This document shows positions 31,866 through 40,451 of a stretch of 64,000 nt of DNA, one piece after another. The position numbers and the translations under genes are program-made. The stretch is from an uncultured Lachnospiraceae bacterium (GTDB lineage: Bacteria > Bacillota > Clostridia > Lachnospirales > Lachnospiraceae). The stretch covers positions 248,001 to 312,000 of the forward strand of contig CADAHQ010000001.1 in assembly GCA_902787715.1 (NCBI GenBank), read 5' to 3'. How positions within the stretch are numbered: position 1 is the stretch's first letter; every line of letters starts with the position of its first letter. The notes below the pieces were generated by a model. That model made no database searches, was not told the DNA's origin, and worked only from the letters and a program-made list of their open reading frames with translations.

Positions 31866-33092
31866 TTAAAATTCCATGGCGCGGATAGCGGGATCCTGCA
31901 TTGCCCCGTACCATGCTTTCTTCTTGGTCATCTTGTAGCCGTTCCACTTGTACAGAAGCGGATACTCGTCGCCGCGCCACGAAACAGAGTCGTGAATGCC
32001 CCATACCGTGATGCAGTCGATGTCAATGGAACCGTCTCTCTTGCCCTTCTGTACTCCCTGAAAGAGCACCTTGTATTTCATGGCCTGGATCTCAAAGCCG
32101 TTGTCGGTGTTCGTCGTTCCGATGTCGAGCTCCGTGATCTGGACCTTGAAGCCTGCTTTGGTGAAGGTCTTCGCCGTTCCGATGACCTCTCTCGCCACCG
32201 ACGTGCTGGTGCTTAAGTGGCACTGCATGCCGATGCCGTCGATGTTGCCTGCCGCAAGAATCGGCTCCAAGACCTTCAGAATCTGGTTGGATTTCGAGTA
32301 GCAGTTGTAATCGTTATAGTACAGGTCAACGCCTTCCGGGGCGTATTTGCGGGCGTATTCGAAGGCATAGTTCATAAAGTCGGGGCCCACAACCTCATAC
32401 CAGAAGCTCTTCGCGCGGAGGCCGTCGGGATCGCCCTCGCCGGGGTTCACCGCCTCGTTCACCACGTCATAGCAATATACCATGCCGGGGTAAGTCTCCT
32501 CCATGTAGGTCATGACCTGGCGGATGTAGCTCTCCATGCGCTTGAGCATAACCTCGCGGCTTACCTTCGGGCTTCCCTTCTGGTAGTCCTCGGTGAAGAA
32601 CCCTTCGGGCGTCTGCTGGTACCAAAGAAGCGTGTGAAAGCGAACCGCGATGCCGTTCTCCTTCGCGTACTCCATGCCGCGCTTGATGCTGTCAAACTTT
32701 ACTTTCGGCTCCGTGTACGTGTCCGGAAGTCCGCTCTGGCATCCCTTGATGTCCAGAATCTGGTCGGGCTTGGACTCGTTTTCGAAGGTCATGCTGTTGA
32801 AGTTCGCGGCAATCTCCTCCGTCACGGCCTTGCTGGCGTAGAGGGAATTCGGAATGGCAACACCGATCTTGAAATCGTCCTTGTAAAGATCCTTCAATGT
32901 CATCTCATCCAGAGGATTCGGCGTCGGCGTGGGCGTTGCGGGGACTTCCGTGGGTGTGGGAGTTTCCGTAGGTGCCGCGGTAGGCGTCACCGTTTCGTTC
33001 TTTGCGTCGTCCTTCTTCCCGCAGGAAGCAAGCACCAAAAGCATGGCAAAGACAAAACCGACAAACAATACAGTGCGAATCAATCTCTTCAT
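31866..33092 (-). CDS. Secreted GH10 endo-1,4-beta-xylanase lipoprotein
   Basis: 408 aa. A lipoprotein signal (TVLFVGFVFAMLLVLASCGK, lipobox LASC) is followed by a Thr/Pro-rich linker (residues about 35-58) and a GH10 barrel: NSMTFENESKPDQI, RFHTLLWYQQTP, the acid/base Glu in YCYDVVNEAVNPGE, the nucleophile Glu in FKVQITELDIGTTN, and ITVWGIHDSVSWR. It cleaves xylan backbones at the cell surface. The ATG at 33092 has AAAGGAGG seven bases upstream; the frame upstream of it runs through the tRNA-Glu gene and is not coding. No xylan-binding module is attached. Confidence 0.94.
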   Translation of the reverse strand: MKRLIRTVLFVGFVFAMLLVLASCGKKDDAKNETVTPTAAPTETPTPTEVPATPTPTPNPLDEMTLKDLYKDDFKIGVAIPNSLYASKAVTEEIAANFNSMTFENESKPDQILDIKGCQSGLPDTYTEPKVKFDSIKRGMEYAKENGIAVRFHTLLWYQQTPEGFFTEDYQKGSPKVSREVMLKRMESYIRQVMTYMEETYPGMVYCYDVVNEAVNPGEGDPDGLRAKSFWYEVVGPDFMNYAFEYARKYAPEGVDLYYNDYNCYSKSNQILKVLEPILAAGNIDGIGMQCHLSTSTSVAREVIGTAKTFTKAGFKVQITELDIGTTNTDNGFEIQAMKYKVLFQGVQKGKRDGSIDIDCITVWGIHDSVSWRGDEYPLLYKWNGYKMTKKKAWYGAMQDPAIRAMEF

Positions 33093-33130
33093 TCCGATAC
33101 CTCCTTTCGCGTGCGCGCGTATAAAGCAAT

Positions 33131-33156
33131 GGGACCGGATTCGCAAACCCGGTCCC
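33131..33156 (-). terminator. Hairpin after tRNA-Glu
   Basis: GGGACCGG (33131-33138) pairs with CCGGTCCC (33149-33156), 5 nt beyond the tRNA 3' end. The following minus-strand sequence (ATTGCTTTAT) is only weakly T-rich, so read-through into the xylanase gene is possible. Confidence 0.6.
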
Positions 33157-33161
33157 AAGAG

Positions 33162-33233
33162 CAGCTTGTGGGGGAATCGAACCCCCGTTTTCGCCGTGAG
33201 AGGGCGACGTCTTGACCCCTTGACCAACAAGCC
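33162..33233 (-). tRNA. tRNA-Glu, anticodon CTC
   Basis: A 72-nt cloverleaf can be drawn on the minus strand: acceptor GGCTTGT/ACAAGCT (closing pair G-U), D stem GTC/GAC, anticodon stem TCGCC/GGCGA with loop CTCTCAC giving anticodon CTC, and T stem GGGGG/CCCCC with loop TTCGATT. The discriminator is G and the CCA is not encoded. It reads GAG codons. Confidence 0.93.
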
Positions 33234-33249
33234 AAATGCTGCGTACATG

Positions 33250-33278
33250 ATGATACCAAAGAACATCGAAAAATGCAA
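33250..33278 (-). promoter_or_regulatory. Promoter of tRNA-Glu
   Basis: Minus strand: -35 TTGCAT (33273-33278), 17-bp spacer, -10 TATCAT (33250-33255). The -35 box is part of TTGCATTTTTCG, one base longer than the recurrent decamer. Confidence 0.8.
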
Positions 33279-33303: not shown

Positions 33304-35361
33304 TTATTTTTCACCCTGTGAATCCGGCCGGTAACCGGTGTCGTAGACGGCGATTTCATAGACGTCGCTTCCTAAGGAATACACCTTCGAAAAGCACGCG
33401 GAAAGCACATCCTCACGAAGCTCGGGATCGTCGTTTCTTTGTCTTCTTTGGATAATCACGTAGGAAATGCCCGCGTCCTCCGCGGCCTTCTTTGCGCTCT
33501 CCGCATCCGGCGCATGCATCAAAGCATCCACATAGGGCTTTCTTGCGTCAACGTCATATCCCGCCCCTCTCGCCATGGAGATGTGGCCGTAGTAATTCTG
33601 GAATCCCGCGGCGTTGACGTTTGTGAGCACGTTGCCGGCACACAGGAACACCGTATCCTTCGTTACCCCCGCTTCCTTTGCCCAGGCAAGAAGCCCCGGC
33701 GTCACGTCTAAGGTGTAGGACTTTTTGGAGTCGCATTTTTTAAGAGTGAGGTAGCTGTCATACAGTCCGGTTCCCAGCAACGGCACCAAAAGAAGCAGCA
33801 TGCAGGCGATGCGGACCGCCGTCAGCACATTCGCCTTCTTCACGCGGATGGCATCCGCAAAGGCGATGGCGCCCTGCATCTCCAGGAGGTAAAGGGAGAA
33901 GAAAAGGTATTTGTGGTTCTGAATCATGTTCGGCGAAAGCTTCACACAGAAGCCGAACACAATCGGAAGGATCGACGCCGCAAGGAAGACCCGCTGCGCT
34001 TTCCCTCCGCGGACCGCATACAAAATAAGCAGCGGGAGCAAAAGCCCGAGCCACTCCCAGAAAAACTTTGCAACACCGACCACGGACCTGTTTTCCAGCA
34101 CATATCCGTAGGTAAGCTCCGTCCCGAAGGGGGAGCCGCTTCCTGCGAAAGCCGTAATCAAGAGCACCGTGATAAACGCCGCGCAAAGCCCCGAAAAGGC
34201 AAATGCCAACTGTTCTCTGGAGAACCACATGAGCACGAACAATATAAGCAGCGCCGCAATCACGGCGTGACCGCTCACGTACCCCGTAAGTCCTAAAAAG
34301 ATGCCCGCGTACACCGCGGTTCCCGCCTGGGAGCGCCCCGTGATGGTCATGTGCTTTTTAAACACAGCCACGAGGTACTCTTTTCCCTTTGCGGTCTTCC
34401 TAATCTCCGCTCTCTCCTCCGCCCCCTTGATGACGTAGGGAAGGAAAAGACTGATGACGAAAAATGCAACCGCCATTCCGAAAATCAGGTGTCGCTGGTT
34501 CACAAGGGTGTTTACGCCGTACAAGCCCCACCATTCATAGTCGGTCTTCCCGAGGTACTGCTCGTTGGTGCGAAGCGCCCGGGAAAGGTTCCCTGCATTT
34601 TCCCGCACAAAGCGATAGATGCCGAGGGACGAGCGGAAGGTGACAAAGAGCCACACCAGATGGCAGACATTCTTCCTGCCGCAAAGGCGGAAGAAGCACT
34701 CAAAGATTGCGCAGTACATGGCAAGCATCGCAAGGACGCTGGGCACATTGTATGCAAAGTCGATACGCATCCCGAGGAACTCCAGATTCCCCGCAAAAAA
34801 ATCAAAGAAGAAATGGTACCGCATGCCGGCTCCCGTAAAAAGCGGATACTGCACGGGGACGCTTTGCCACTCCGAGACAGACCGGATGAGATTTACATGC
34901 AGGGAAAAGTCTTCCGCCACCGGCGACCCTAAAATCATCTGCCCGGAGATTACGCGGAAGCTTGCAATCATCATGACACTTGCGAAGGAAATCGATGCCG
35001 CGAGATACAGCATCTCGCTGGCCGTAGGCCGAAGCTGCTTAAGAAGCGGCTTGAATTTGACGTGATTTCGAAAGCGGAGAATGACAAGAACCGATGCAAC
35101 GGGAAGAACGGTCATCACGATGAGATTTGCGTATGTAAGCGGTTTTTCGGTGTGTGCAAACAAACGGGCGACCGCGTACGTAAGCCATCCCTGCGTCAGG
35201 ATTCCGGCGATGAGACTCGCCGGATACAACGCAAAGAACGGATTGCGCGTACGCTCTCCCGCTACGGTGAGAATCTTCCTCTGCATGACGCGGGGAAGGA
35301 TCGCAATCACAATGGCAAAGCCCGTCAGAAGGCACTCTGCCAGATACAATAGTCCGATCAT
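33304..35361 (-). CDS. Multi-pass membrane protein, GT-C-like
   Basis: 685 aa, not recognised as a named family. At least 11-13 hydrophobic segments cover residues 1-540; the last ~130 residues are soluble. The loop after the fourth or fifth segment (VQYPLFTGAGMRYHFFFDFF) recalls the arrangement in DUF2298/GT-C membrane glycosyltransferases, which use lipid-phosphate sugars; this is inference from layout only. The C-terminal part (TPGLLAWAKEAGVTKDTVFL, VDALMHAPDAESAKKAAEDA) resembles the soluble tails of such proteins. The ATG overlaps the polC stop by 4 nt, so it is translated in step with the replicase gene. Confidence 0.75.
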   Translation of the reverse strand: MIGLLYLAECLLTGFAIVIAILPRVMQRKILTVAGERTRNPFFALYPASLIAGILTQGWLTYAVARLFAHTEKPLTYANLIVMTVLPVASVLVILRFRNHVKFKPLLKQLRPTASEMLYLAASISFASVMMIASFRVISGQMILGSPVAEDFSLHVNLIRSVSEWQSVPVQYPLFTGAGMRYHFFFDFFAGNLEFLGMRIDFAYNVPSVLAMLAMYCAIFECFFRLCGRKNVCHLVWLFVTFRSSLGIYRFVRENAGNLSRALRTNEQYLGKTDYEWWGLYGVNTLVNQRHLIFGMAVAFFVISLFLPYVIKGAEERAEIRKTAKGKEYLVAVFKKHMTITGRSQAGTAVYAGIFLGLTGYVSGHAVIAALLILFVLMWFSREQLAFAFSGLCAAFITVLLITAFAGSGSPFGTELTYGYVLENRSVVGVAKFFWEWLGLLLPLLILYAVRGGKAQRVFLAASILPIVFGFCVKLSPNMIQNHKYLFFSLYLLEMQGAIAFADAIRVKKANVLTAVRIACMLLLLVPLLGTGLYDSYLTLKKCDSKKSYTLDVTPGLLAWAKEAGVTKDTVFLCAGNVLTNVNAAGFQNYYGHISMARGAGYDVDARKPYVDALMHAPDAESAKKAAEDAGISYVIIQRRQRNDDPELREDVLSACFSKVYSLGSDVYEIAVYDTGYRPDSQGEK

Positions 35362-38300
35362 ACCATTTCTCCGAAGAAGTCCGTGAGTCGCATCTGGTTG
35401 GATTCCTGCAAATCGGAAATCACGCCCACCTGGGAAAGAAGGTCGGTGACGCTGGCGCCCACATGGCAGCGGTTGCGGAGATCTTCCTTCGAGAGGAAGG
35501 GATCGTTCGCATCCGCCTCCGCCTCAATCGCCGCGGCTGCAACGCCGCCCAGACCGCCGATGGCCGTCAGGGAAGGCATGATTTTGCCGTCAATCACCTG
35601 GAATTTGGTGGCCTTTGCGCGGTAGATGTCGATGGGCATGAAATCAAAACCTCTCGCATACATCTCCTGCACAAGGCGCATATCCTTCAGCTGCCCCTGT
35701 TCCTTCTCGGACAGCATATACTCCTTCTGCTTGCTGTTGCTTCTGCGGTTGTACTCCTTCATGATCTTCTCAAGCTTTTCTTTTCCCATGGCCATCAGCT
35801 CATAGTCAAAGTTGTTGGCGCGGATGGAGAAGTAAGCCGCATAGTACATAAGCGGCAGATACAGCTTAAAGTAGGCAACGCGGAACGCCATCATGACGTA
35901 GGCACACGCGTGGGCCTTCGGGAACATGTATTTAATCTGCTTACAGGACCATATATACCAGTCGGGAATGTTGTGTTCCTTCATCTCCTGCTCCCACTCA
36001 GGCGTCAGGCCCTTGCCCTTGCGGACCTTCTCCATGATGCTGAAGGCATCCTTGTTGGGAATGCCCATGGCAATCAGGAATGTCATGATATCGTCGCGGG
36101 TACAGATGGCCGTGGAGAGGGTGCATTTGCCGTCGTGAATCAGATCCTGGGTATTGTTGGTCCACACATCGGTTCCGTGGGACAGGCCGGAGATTCGAAT
36201 CATGTCCGAAAAGCTTCGGGGCTGGGTCTCCAAAAGCATCTTGATAACGAAGTTCGTGCCAAGCTCAGGAAGCCCTAAACTTCCCGTCTCGCAGCCGCCG
36301 ATCTGGTCCGGCGTGATGCCTAAGGCCTCGGTACTGTACATTAAGGAGATCACCTTCGGATCGTCCATCGGAAGCGTTTTAACATCGATTCCGGAGAGGT
36401 CCTCAAGCATTCGGATCATGGTGGGATCTTCGTGTCCCAGAATATCCAGTTTCAGGAGGTTATGATCAATCTTGTGGTAATCGAAGTGGGTCGTCACAGT
36501 GTCGGTGGTCATATCGTTCGCCGGATGCTGGATGGGCGTAAACGTGTCGATCTCCTCCCCATGGGGCAAAACGATGATTCCGCCGGGGTGCTGGCCCGTA
36601 GTCCGGCGCACACCGACACAGCCGAGGACGATACGGTCAATCTCCGCGGTCCGCTTGGTGATGCCGTGCTCCTCGTAGTATTTCTTGATATAGCCGAAGG
36701 CGGTCTTGTCTGCAAGGGTGCCGACAGTACCGGCGCGGAAGGTGTGGCCTTTGCCGAACAAAACTTCGGTGTACGCATGGGCCTTGCTCTGGTATTCGCT
36801 CGAAAAATTCAAATCGATATCGGGCTCCTTGTCTCCGTAGAACCCCAGGAACGTCTCAAAGGGGATGTTCTGTCCGTCCTTGGTGAGCTTCCGCCCGCAG
36901 TTCGGACAATCCCGGTCCGGAAGGTCGAAGCCGGACTTCAATGCATAGGCCTTCACTTCCTCCGAGTCGAAGTCCGTATAATGGCAGTGCTTGCAGAAGT
37001 AGTGGGCCGGCAGCGGGTTCACCTCGGTGATTCCGGCCATGGTGGCCACGAAGGACGAGCCCACACTGCCTCGGGAACCCACGAGATAGCCGTCATCGTT
37101 GGAATGCTTCACGAGGCGCTGTGCAATGATATACATGACGGCAAAGCCGTTGTTGATGATGGAATTGAGCTCCTTCTCCAGTCGGTTCGATACAATCTCC
37201 GGAAGCTCGTCGCCGTACCAGCTGCGGGCGGTGTTGTAGCAGATCTCGCGAAGCTCGGAATCGGAATTCTCGATGACCGGGGGGCATTTGTCGGGGCGAA
37301 CCGGGTCGATCTTCTCGATCATGGCGTTGACGCGGTTCGGATTTTCCACAACCACTTCATAGGCCTTGGCCGCCGGAAGATACGTGAATTCCTCAAGCAT
37401 CTCCTCGGTGGTGCGGTAATAAAGCGGCGGCTGGCGGTCGGCGTCCTCATAGCCCTTTCCGGCCATGATGATGCGGCGGTAAATCTCATCCTCGGGATTT
37501 AAGAAATGCACGTCACAGGTGGCGATGCACATCTTCCCGTGAGCGTCCGCCAGGTCCACGATGCGCTTGTTGAGGGCGGCGAGATCGTCGTATCCCTTCA
37601 CCTGGGGAATCTTCTCGTCATCAATCATGTAGGCGTTGTTTCCCAGGGGCTGAATCTCGTAGTAGTCGTAAAAATCACTGATTCGCTTGATCTCCGCCTC
37701 GGGCTTATCAAACAAAATCGCGCGGAACAGCTCTCCCGCCTCGCAGGCGGAACCGATGATCAGACCCTCGCGCATGCTCCGAAGAAGGCTCTTCGGAATT
37801 CTCGGGCGGGCATGGTAAAAGAACTCCGTGTGCGACCGCGACACGAGGCGATACAGATTGTTTCTTCCCACATCGTTTTTGCAAAGAAGAATAATGTGGT
37901 AGCTCGGAAGACGCTTGATTTCCTCAGCGTCTGCCACCAGATCAAGGGGCGAGCCGTCGGGCTTTGTGACGCCCTCGTCGTCCACGATATATCCTTCCAT
38001 GCCGTAGATAATCTTAAACTTCTTATATGCGGCAAGCTTTGCCTCGTCATCCCCGAACTTCTTCGGGTCAATGGCATGTGCCGCGTCCACGAAGGACTGC
38101 ACCACACCGTGGTCCGTGATGGCGATGGCGGGATGTCCCCATTCGAAGGCGCGCTTCACGATTGTGGCCGTGTCCACCACGGCGTCCATATCGCTCATCT
38201 GGGTGTGGCAATGCAGCTCCACGCGCTTCTTCTCCGCGGTATCCTTCCGCTTCAGCCGAAAATCCTCCGACCTGCGGATGCCGTACACGCGGGTAATGGT

Positions 38301-39326
38301 AAGCTCGCGGGAGTATTTGTCGTCCTCGGTCTCGCCGTTAAGGATGACAAATGCACCCTCCTTAATATCCTTCAGAAGTTCCTCCGCTTCCTCCGTGGGG
38401 GTGTAGAGCTTCACGGCGATGGAGTCCTCAAAATCGGTGATGTTGAAGGTGACCATCGTCTTTGTTGCCGGCTTTTTCTCGCCCTCCTCGGGTGCATTTC
38501 TCGGGGCCAGCTCGCGGCTGTCCACGTGGAATATCTGGCCGCGGATGGTAACCTTCTGGTATGGGAACTGTACGTCCGAAAGGGACGTAAATGTGTCAAA
38601 TTCAAAGGCTTTTCCGTAGAAGATCGCCGGATCGGCAGGCGCCTTCTTGCGGCGGAAGGAGGCATTTTCCTTGGGCTCCTCCGGCACGGGCTTCGCCTCT
38701 TTCTTGATGAGGTCGGCAGGCTTCCGGTCTCTCGACGGTTCAAACGCCTTTGCCCGTTTGTGAAGGACTCTTGCGATGTGCTCCTCCTCGGTGTAGGTGC
38801 GTTCGTGGGCATAGGATTCCGTCAGATCCTCCGACTCCTCGTAGCGGATTCCCGCCTGCGGGAAACGGTCCGACCAGAACCGGAGGCGCGCGTTAAATTC
38901 CGTCAAAAACTCCTCCTGCAGGGCGCGGTAGAGGCCGTTGTTCGGAAGGCTTAAGAGTATCTTCCCGTCCCCGGAGGAAACCTTGGCTTCCGAGAGAAGA
39001 TACCGAAAGCTCTGGTGATATTCGCAGGTAAACTGGTCCGCAATCAGAGAAAGCAAAAGGTCTCTCGCTTCCTCCTCGTTCCCTTCCTCGATGCACGCAA
39101 AACGGACCCGAATGCGGACATGCCGCCCCGAGTCAGCGAAAACCTGTTCCTCTAAACATTGTGCAAGCCTCTGCAGCACCGTAAAGGGAATCATGTCCCG
39201 ACTGTTGGCGTAGACGGTGATCACTCCCGCGGAGCTCGCCGTCATCCGTTCAATGTCGAGGTCCCGAATCTGCGATACGATGTGCGCATCCGGCTGAAAT
39301 TCTTCAAATACTTCAAAAACGTTCAT
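35358..39326 (-). CDS. polC: PolC-type DNA polymerase III alpha subunit lacking the exonuclease insert
   Basis: 1322 aa, about 110 shorter than the usual 1430-1450. The order is N-terminal domain, OB domain (about 255-350), PHP domain (about 365-620), polymerase core with catalytic Asp residues in DKEPDIDLNF (D836, D838), a zinc region (CKHCHY, CPNCGRK) and a C-terminal HhH/duplex-binding region. In B. subtilis PolC a DnaQ-type exonuclease (VVFDVETTG) interrupts PHP; no such sequence exists here, and PHP runs unbroken from GMEGY (E444) to YHIILL (H477). All nine canonical PHP metal ligands can be placed: H372, H374, D381, H406, E444, H477, C528, D605, H607. It sits at the end of the uppS-cdsA-dxr-rseP-ispG-polC series, as in other Firmicutes. 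Confidence 0.93.
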   Translation of the reverse strand: MNVFEVFEEFQPDAHIVSQIRDLDIERMTASSAGVITVYANSRDMIPFTVLQRLAQCLEEQVFADSGRHVRIRVRFACIEEGNEEEARDLLLSLIADQFTCEYHQSFRYLLSEAKVSSGDGKILLSLPNNGLYRALQEEFLTEFNARLRFWSDRFPQAGIRYEESEDLTESYAHERTYTEEEHIARVLHKRAKAFEPSRDRKPADLIKKEAKPVPEEPKENASFRRKKAPADPAIFYGKAFEFDTFTSLSDVQFPYQKVTIRGQIFHVDSRELAPRNAPEEGEKKPATKTMVTFNITDFEDSIAVKLYTPTEEAEELLKDIKEGAFVILNGETEDDKYSRELTITRVYGIRRSEDFRLKRKDTAEKKRVELHCHTQMSDMDAVVDTATIVKRAFEWGHPAIAITDHGVVQSFVDAAHAIDPKKFGDDEAKLAAYKKFKIIYGMEGYIVDDEGVTKPDGSPLDLVADAEEIKRLPSYHIILLCKNDVGRNNLYRLVSRSHTEFFYHARPRIPKSLLRSMREGLIIGSACEAGELFRAILFDKPEAEIKRISDFYDYYEIQPLGNNAYMIDDEKIPQVKGYDDLAALNKRIVDLADAHGKMCIATCDVHFLNPEDEIYRRIIMAGKGYEDADRQPPLYYRTTEEMLEEFTYLPAAKAYEVVVENPNRVNAMIEKIDPVRPDKCPPVIENSDSELREICYNTARSWYGDELPEIVSNRLEKELNSIINNGFAVMYIIAQRLVKHSNDDGYLVGSRGSVGSSFVATMAGITEVNPLPAHYFCKHCHYTDFDSEEVKAYALKSGFDLPDRDCPNCGRKLTKDGQNIPFETFLGFYGDKEPDIDLNFSSEYQSKAHAYTEVLFGKGHTFRAGTVGTLADKTAFGYIKKYYEEHGITKRTAEIDRIVLGCVGVRRTTGQHPGGIIVLPHGEEIDTFTPIQHPANDMTTDTVTTHFDYHKIDHNLLKLDILGHEDPTMIRMLEDLSGIDVKTLPMDDPKVISLMYSTEALGITPDQIGGCETGSLGLPELGTNFVIKMLLETQPRSFSDMIRISGLSHGTDVWTNNTQDLIHDGKCTLSTAICTRDDIMTFLIAMGIPNKDAFSIMEKVRKGKGLTPEWEQEMKEHNIPDWYIWSCKQIKYMFPKAHACAYVMMAFRVAYFKLYLPLMYYAAYFSIRANNFDYELMAMGKEKLEKIMKEYNRRSNSKQKEYMLSEKEQGQLKDMRLVQEMYARGFDFMPIDIYRAKATKFQVIDGKIMPSLTAIGGLGGVAAAAIEAEADANDPFLSKEDLRNRCHVGASVTDLLSQVGVISDLQESNQMRLTDFFGEMV

Positions 39327-39374: not shown

Positions 39375-40439
39375 TTATTTTCCGGGTTTCTCCGCGCGGA
39401 TTCTGCACAGCTCCTCTTCCAAAGCCGGCAACAGCGCGTCCTCCGGCATCTTGGCGACAATCTCGCCCTTACGGAACAAAAGCCCCTCTCCGTCGCCTCC
39501 TGCGATGCCCAGGTCCGCCTCTCTCGCTTCCCCGGGACCGTTGACGACACAGCCCATCACGGCCACCTTGATGTCCAGGTCGTCGAACCGCTCAACCAAA
39601 GCCTCGGCACGGCTTGCAAGGCCGATCAAATCAATCTTCGTGCGTCCGCAGGTCGGGCATGAAACAAGCTCGATGCCGCCTTTGCGAAGGCCCAACGTCT
39701 TCAGAATGCGCTTTGCGGAGCGCACCTCTTCCTCCGGGCTGCCCGTTAAGGAAACGCGGATGGTATCGCCGATTCCCTCGTGCAGCAGGATTCCCAGGCC
39801 GATGGAGGATTTGATGTTTCCGGCCCAGACGGAGCCGGCCTCCGTGATTCCCACATGGAGAGGATAATCCGTAAGGGCCGCGATGCGCTCATGGGCCTCC
39901 ACGCACAAAAGCACATCCGAAGATTTTATGCTGATGACAATGTTTTCGAAGGAAAGCTTCTCGAGCTCGCGAACCTTCATCATCGCGCTTTCCACAAGGC
40001 CTTCCGCCGTAACGCCGCCGTATCTTTCGATTAAACTCTTCTCTAACGAGCCGCTGTTGACGCCGACGCGAATCGGAATTCCGGCCTCCGCCGCCTTCGC
40101 CACAACCGCCGCAACCCTCGAAGGATCACCGATATTGCCGGGGTTGATGCGGATCTTGTCCGCCCCTGCCTCGATGGCCGCGATAGCCAGCCGGTAATCG
40201 AAATGAATGTCGGCGACAAGAGGAATCCGGATCTGCTTCTTAATCTCCCGGACGGCCTCCGCAGCCTCCGGTGTGGGCACGGCAACGCGGATGATATCGC
40301 ATCCGAGGTCCGTAAGGCGCGAAATCTGCGCAACGGTGGCCGCAACATCTTCCGTCTTTGTGTTGCACATGGACTGAATCAGAATGGGATTGCCGCCGCC
40401 GATGACGCGGTCGCCGATTTTCACTGCTCTGGTTTTCAT
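39375..40439 (-). CDS. ispG: 4-hydroxy-3-methylbut-2-enyl-diphosphate synthase
   Basis: 354 aa. TIM-barrel start (VKIGDRVIGGGNPILIQSMC), LVADIHFDYRLAIAAIEAGA, and the iron-sulfur cysteines in ELVSCPTCGRTKIDL and VMGCVVNGPGEA identify the GcpE enzyme of the MEP isoprenoid pathway. The frame extends one TTG codon further; the ATG at 40439 has GGAGG five bases upstream. It is flanked by rseP and polC and shares a pathway with dxr two genes upstream. Confidence 0.96.
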   Translation of the reverse strand: MKTRAVKIGDRVIGGGNPILIQSMCNTKTEDVAATVAQISRLTDLGCDIIRVAVPTPEAAEAVREIKKQIRIPLVADIHFDYRLAIAAIEAGADKIRINPGNIGDPSRVAAVVAKAAEAGIPIRVGVNSGSLEKSLIERYGGVTAEGLVESAMMKVRELEKLSFENIVISIKSSDVLLCVEAHERIAALTDYPLHVGITEAGSVWAGNIKSSIGLGILLHEGIGDTIRVSLTGSPEEEVRSAKRILKTLGLRKGGIELVSCPTCGRTKIDLIGLASRAEALVERFDDLDIKVAVMGCVVNGPGEAREADLGIAGGDGEGLLFRKGEIVAKMPEDALLPALEEELCRIRAEKPGK

Positions 40440-40451
40440 CAAAACCTCCGG

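Follow-up and report, generated by a model that had tools for sequence, protein, structure and literature searches.

A PolC polymerase with a complete PHP metal site and no inserted exonuclease in a relative of rumen Lachnospiraceae

PolC without its exonuclease insert

The DnaQ-type exonuclease inserted in the PHP domain has been termed a hallmark of the replicative polymerase PolC (Timinskas et al. 2013, PMC3919608). That survey puts exonuclease-less (exo-less) PolC at 6% of PolC proteins and at 16% in sets of PolC and DnaE1, confined to Clostridia and Negativicutes with one exception in Thermotogae. In Geobacillus PolC, the DnaQ-like domain is inserted in the PHP loop that, in Mycobacterium tuberculosis (Mtb) DnaE1, lines the groove leading to the PHP site (PMC5636811). 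A 2026 survey from the group of Timinskas et al. describes three active proofreaders in most Clostridia, and the drug-target survey of McPherson (2025), by requiring the insert, retained 620 of 1,158 annotated proteins (PMC11963600). Here, we analyzed the polC gene carried by a stretch of 64,000 nucleotides (the window) from the draft genome of an uncultured Lachnospiraceae bacterium (assembly GCA_902787715.1, contig CADAHQ010000001.1, positions 248,001 to 312,000), whose product has no such insert and keeps all of its PHP metal ligands.

The open reading frame of the original prediction was recovered at 35358 to 39326; it encodes 1322 residues and lies on the minus strand, which the prediction had left out. 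Two curated PolC models of NCBIfam fit the whole protein, PRK00448 with 1426 bits (cut-off 873) and TIGR01405 with 1322 bits (cut-off 1043), both at E = 0. The protein does not belong to the DnaE type: DnaE models scored far under their cut-offs, and the OB match precedes the PHP domain instead of following the core. Pfam matched the PHP (residues 370-552), pol3 alpha, finger and HHH_6 regions. The N-terminal matches, N-I (3-64), N-II (100-191) and OB (287-346), were weak and under cut-offs, and the PolC-type layout, with N-terminal domains and the OB fold ahead of PHP, is read through these sub-cut-off matches. The OB-fold region (38289 to 38468, minus strand, as are all features below) aligns to Geobacillus PolC (3f2b). 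The polymerase site displays an intact aspartate triad, with D836 and D838 in the DIDLNF motif (36804 to 36821) and D961 as the third catalytic residue (36444-36446), and Pfam places a helix-hairpin-helix region at residues 1227-1309 (35400 to 35648). Canonical PolC structures (Geobacillus 3f2b; 9qpc) share this domain order and polymerase site, and were the best structural and sequence matches. Unlike the window PolC, 9qpc possesses the insert, seen as a gap in the alignment, while the 3f2b construct had its insert removed (PMC3656037).

The PHP domain (about residues 366-640; 37407 to 38231) runs uninterrupted according to Pfam, the AlphaFold model and its fold matches. No RNase_T (PF00929) match was obtained with Pfam in the window PolC, and the two metal ligands that flank the insertion site, E444 and H477, are 33 positions apart, bearing out both the missing DnaQ-type (DEDDh) insert and the short spacing that had been predicted. 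The loop between them (37896 to 37997), the site of the DnaQ-type exonuclease in other PolC, leaves 32 residues between the ligands, versus 182 to 217 in exo-containing relatives; the leftover loop ranges from 12 to 57 residues in exo-less PolC, and counts 33 in Mtb DnaE1 (E73-H107; PMC5636811). The protein is kept as a PolC on its remaining features, an insert-less PolC being a published variant. Like the exo-less PolC described in Clostridia and Negativicutes (PMC3919608), it combines the lack of the insert with a DnaE1 partner and a conserved PHP site.

The short form is shared by relatives. Of 337 loci from a homologue scan of genome contigs, the 80 best were kept. Most of them are Lachnospiraceae and many come from the rumen; the closest are 82% identical to the window PolC. 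Sixteen of these 80 are exo-less, with 32-33 residues from the E444 to the H477 equivalent, and 62 of the other 64 bear the insert, with 213-216 residues between; the last two (L043 and L068) are cut, and their insert can be judged only in part. Within the window's genus, a PolC match was found in 21 of 22 genomes and always crossed the insert site in one piece, although one match is a 626-residue fragment with 46% identity (G004), and the genome without a match is 79% complete (G017). The original prediction had allowed for a deletion artefact, and the source genome is indeed a draft of 54 contigs; yet with the genus matches in one piece, 16 scanned relatives of identical short architecture and exo-less PolC in many other families, there is practically no probability left that the short PolC results from assembly or gene calling, and we rejected this explanation.

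We consider it reasonably probable that the exonuclease was lost secondarily and that proofreading now falls to the PHP site of PolC, to that of DnaE1, or to both. In this scenario, the replicative PolC of a bacterium near the rumen Lachnospiraceae would have lost its DEDDh domain within the family, and its PHP domain would have closed up while keeping the nine metal ligands, including the aspartate needed by the Mycobacterium DnaE1 exonuclease. The PHP site of PolC would bind zinc and remove mispaired 3' ends; together with the PHP site of DnaE1 it would ensure proofreading, with MutS mismatch repair as a backup. Rather than an adaptation to the loss, the intact site would be an inherited state, which probably made the insert dispensable.

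The PHP metal site and other candidate proofreaders

All nine PHP ligands announced by the original prediction were verified by position (H372, H374, D381, H406, E444, H477, C528, D605 and H607), giving the pattern HHDHEHCDH, which falls within the HHDHEH[C/H]DH ligand set defined in PMC12926913. Mycobacterium DnaE1 (5lew, 7pu7) presents the same nine-ligand site with its catalytic aspartate; it is a polymerase of the DnaE type with a measured exonuclease, while the window protein is of the PolC type and known from its sequence. The D605-V606-H607 segment (37506 to 37514) brings D605 in line with the aspartate of the TND-x-H motif of DnaE1, D226 in the numbering of Mtb DnaE1 (7pu7). In Mtb DnaE1, the D226N substitution abolished the exonuclease and left the metal (zinc) content unchanged (PMC5636811). 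Since asparagine at this place kills the DnaE1 exonuclease, a PolC with asparagine at the 605 position is predicted, by analogy, to lack a PHP exonuclease, whereas the window PolC would not. Asparagine is found there (TGNVH) in the two solved PolC, Geobacillus 3f2b and 9qpc, in contrast with D605 of the window PolC. The original prediction had ascribed asparagine at this position to B. subtilis and S. aureus PolC; in our alignment, it holds for these two structures.

We then compared exo-less and exo-containing proteins. The PHP alignment retained 218 of 237 rows (236 PolC loci and the window, 19 duplicates being removed), three of them partial. Counted over the distinct PHP sequences of all sets surveyed, after removal of three further redundant rows in all, the complete HHDHEHCDH site is shown by 152 of the 156 exo-containing PolC and by 124 of the 125 that are exo-less. 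The exceptions with asparagine at 605 are four exo-containing rows of one clade, which we infer to be Bacilli. Among exo-containing rows of the same class with a complete PHP domain, the nine ligands are identical in 134 of 134. The original prediction had linked the loss of the insert to the aspartate at 605, and had named the same nine ligands in exo-containing PolC as what would speak against it; they are there, and the link fails, aspartate being usual whether the insert is there or not. The idea that Asp605 compensates for the lost insert was rejected on the same ground, its presence in exo-containing PolC. The companion idea of PHP proofreading stood in part: the site looks catalytically complete, and proofreading by it is therefore plausible, but its tie to Asp605 and insert loss is gone.

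The sole exo-less exception to the complete site is an incomplete copy of 768 residues (L216, G662:C3). This insert-less PolC-like protein has broken ligands (HHDHEPANH), keeps the DIDLNF motif, and is possibly an extra or decayed polymerase.

An AlphaFold model of residues 362-690, built from 17 related sequences and devoid of metals, reached a mean predicted local distance difference test (pLDDT) of 86 and a predicted template modelling score (pTM) of 0.85. The closed loop was modelled confidently, with block means of 90-94, and the top fold matches were PolC, then DnaE entries. The model shows a predicted PHP fold that is complete without the insert, and is silent on activity.

A separate DnaQ had been proposed as a substitute for the insert. 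The PF00929 search of the source genome was empty at E ≤ 10; as a control, the family model detected the insert of PolC in each of 28 exo-containing genomes. Outside PolC, PF00929 matches are not in excess where the insert is missing (19 of 31 exo-less versus 20 of 28 exo-containing genomes, Fisher p = 0.58), and at E ≤ 0.001 such matches are missing from 12 of the 31 exo-less genomes. Within the genus, some match at E ≤ 1 was obtained in 16 of 22 genomes, and a match above the family cut-off in 5 of the 22. Two of the 18 genus matches listed are full-length, a Cas2-DnaQ fusion (G019) and a lone DEDDh protein (G013), neither of which resembles a replicative DnaQ; five of the 16 weaker ones were viewed and appeared YprB-like by eye. 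These DEDD-fold proteins of some genus members are what could be advanced for a divergent or unrecognised DnaQ-type subunit working in trans with PolC. Against it stand the empty search of the own genome, the even distribution of non-PolC matches and the dozen exo-less genomes without any, making such a subunit improbable, and the proposed substitution by a free DnaQ found no support. The Cas2-DnaQ fusion is an observation in its own right: Pfam identifies in this genus member a Cas2 fused to a DnaQ-type exonuclease (L326, G019:C11).

The second polymerase offers another PHP site, one that the original prediction had left out of account. Besides PolC, the source genome encodes a single alpha subunit, of the DnaE type (contig C19), and the PHP ligands are intact in 6 of 6 aligned DnaE of the genus, that of the source genome included. 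From this complete site, we judged the partner to be DnaE1 rather than DnaE3. The DnaE1 PHP site is likewise complete in all 31 exo-less genomes from which DnaE was fetched; in one further genome, G060, the DnaE search was empty at E ≤ 1e-60. In exo-containing genomes, it is complete in 27 of 28, the remaining one being cut by an in-frame stop. A damaged DnaE1 PHP site, sought as a means to distinguish between the two PHP sites, was encountered in none of these 31 exo-less and 28 exo-containing genomes. All 22 genomes of the genus have MutS. Judging from sequence, the PHP sites of PolC and DnaE1 would be the only recognisable proofreaders of the source genome.

These data also bear on the possibility that PolC no longer proofreads, its PHP site being structural, and that DnaE1 corrects the errors or performs the bulk of synthesis. 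DnaE1 as the main replicase of bacteria with PolC and DnaE1 was raised by Timinskas et al. (PMC3919608), the DnaE1 PHP site is complete in every exo-less genome with a fetched DnaE, and the PolC PHP site is as conserved where the insert is present, that is, independently of need. By contrast, the D226 equivalent stays aspartate in 124 of 125 exo-less PolC, although asparagine there leaves the zinc of Mtb DnaE1 in place and a purely structural metal site should therefore not need the aspartate. We hold this as a weak point, exo-containing PolC keeping aspartate too (152 of 156), and regard a PolC that has ceased to proofread as rather unlikely, though with appreciable weight.

Several observations weigh against a secondary loss after which the PHP sites do the proofreading. 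The equal conservation of the ligands in exo-containing PolC could reflect metal-supported folding and not catalysis, and DnaE1 alone could be the proofreader. The structural model is less confident at the H372-D381 and H406 stretches (block means of 63 and 68). PF00929 may miss divergent DEDD enzymes, as the low scores of the YprB-like genus proteins illustrate, and the source genome, in its 54 contigs, is 97.5% complete. Finally, no assay of an exo-less PolC appeared in the literature searched, which lacked most subscription journals and bioRxiv preprints.

Distribution and history of the insert

The clade survey suggested along with the original prediction revealed exo-less PolC in genus, family, class and phylum samples. 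In the family sample of 299 genomes, 11 exo-less proteins were present among the matches listed; two belong to the genus of the window, and the nine others were aligned. In the class sample (393 genomes), at least 63 genomes, that of the window included, have a one-piece PHP match. The phylum-wide sample (149 genomes) contains at least 54 one-piece cases, again with the window's genome, and 11 more that matched in two pieces but are exo-less by alignment. This brings the exo-less genomes to at least 65 among about 111 with a PolC, the latter figure being a hand count (149 minus 38 genomes with weak DnaE-like matches only, seemingly without PolC). The one-piece criterion was upheld in 35 of 35 aligned one-piece loci from this sample. 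These figures suggest that the exo-less form is commoner by lineage than in the earlier survey, and that it is recurrent.

To follow the insert through time, its presence was mapped on two trees, whose rows were hand-chosen and in each of which one genome stands twice. The polymerase-core tree (121 rows) implies 11 presence/absence changes, at least 6 of them forced by well-supported branches, and the phylum-wide tree (136 rows, simpler model) implies 20, at least 10 of them forced. At least three exo-less groups within Lachnospiraceae are common to both. The window clade is placed among exo-containing Lachnospiraceae PolC, with support of 87-94 at its closest joins and a starred family clade; the two trees conflict on whether G145 (L133) joins it, and on other weak forks. 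Rooting by two DnaE rows relied on the simpler model and involved a very long branch, and no root was drawn from it.

Neither a tree alone nor a parsimony count can separate loss from gain, and exo-less PolC is widespread, which leaves room for an exo-less state that is ancestral here, with the insert gained by relatives. We therefore compared insert and core. In 58 exo-containing proteins, the similarities of the two are correlated (Spearman 0.46, a value reached in 0 of 1000 permutations). Insert and core point to the same nearest neighbour for only 27 of the 58, so some exchange is possible, but in the 31 disagreeing pairs insert identity is never above core identity. Insert and core running together favours inheritance with repeated loss over repeated gain. 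Moreover, the insert occupies a single place with a near-constant length of 182-217. Together with the nesting of the window clade inside exo-containing Lachnospiraceae and the short loop throughout the genus, on which the loss reading rests, this makes an ancestral exo-less state very improbable.

Exo-less PolC is not new in kind, having been published in 2013 (PMC3919608); new here are a member near the rumen Lachnospiraceae, the at least 10 insert changes on a tree and the at least 65 exo-less genomes among about 111. A broader proposal, to which we give somewhat less than an even chance, is that the PolC DEDDh proofreader has been repeatedly discarded in many lineages of the phylum, and that some of them, the source genome included, proofread by PHP sites only, without a DnaQ-type enzyme. 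If so, the intact PHP site would be the condition that permitted the loss of the insert. PolC is commonly described by its insert, and our samples suggest that a definition on this basis misses a large part of the PolC lineages. Should the PHP site proofread, exo-less PolC would be a natural PolC with a single proofreader, and would offer a direct test of PHP proofreading.

Gene neighbourhood of polC

The polC gene is the last of its usual gene row, preceded by upstream neighbours with Pfam matches, of which the closest is ispG (GcpE; 39375 to 40442, minus strand). We take the row to be pyrH-frr-uppS-cdsA-dxr-rseP-ispG-polC, the names being assigned by standard knowledge. From its position in this row, the window gene looks like the ordinary chromosomal polC rather than an additional copy.

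On the other side, a gene for a protein of 685 residues (33304-35361, minus strand) overlaps the polC stop by 4 bases. The protein has no Pfam match and appears by eye to be a multi-pass membrane protein resembling a GT-C-like glycosyltransferase. A homologue directly follows polC in nine exo-less loci (L004-L010, L012 and L015). A glycosyl hydrolase family 10 protein is encoded near the polC cluster (31866-33278, minus strand).

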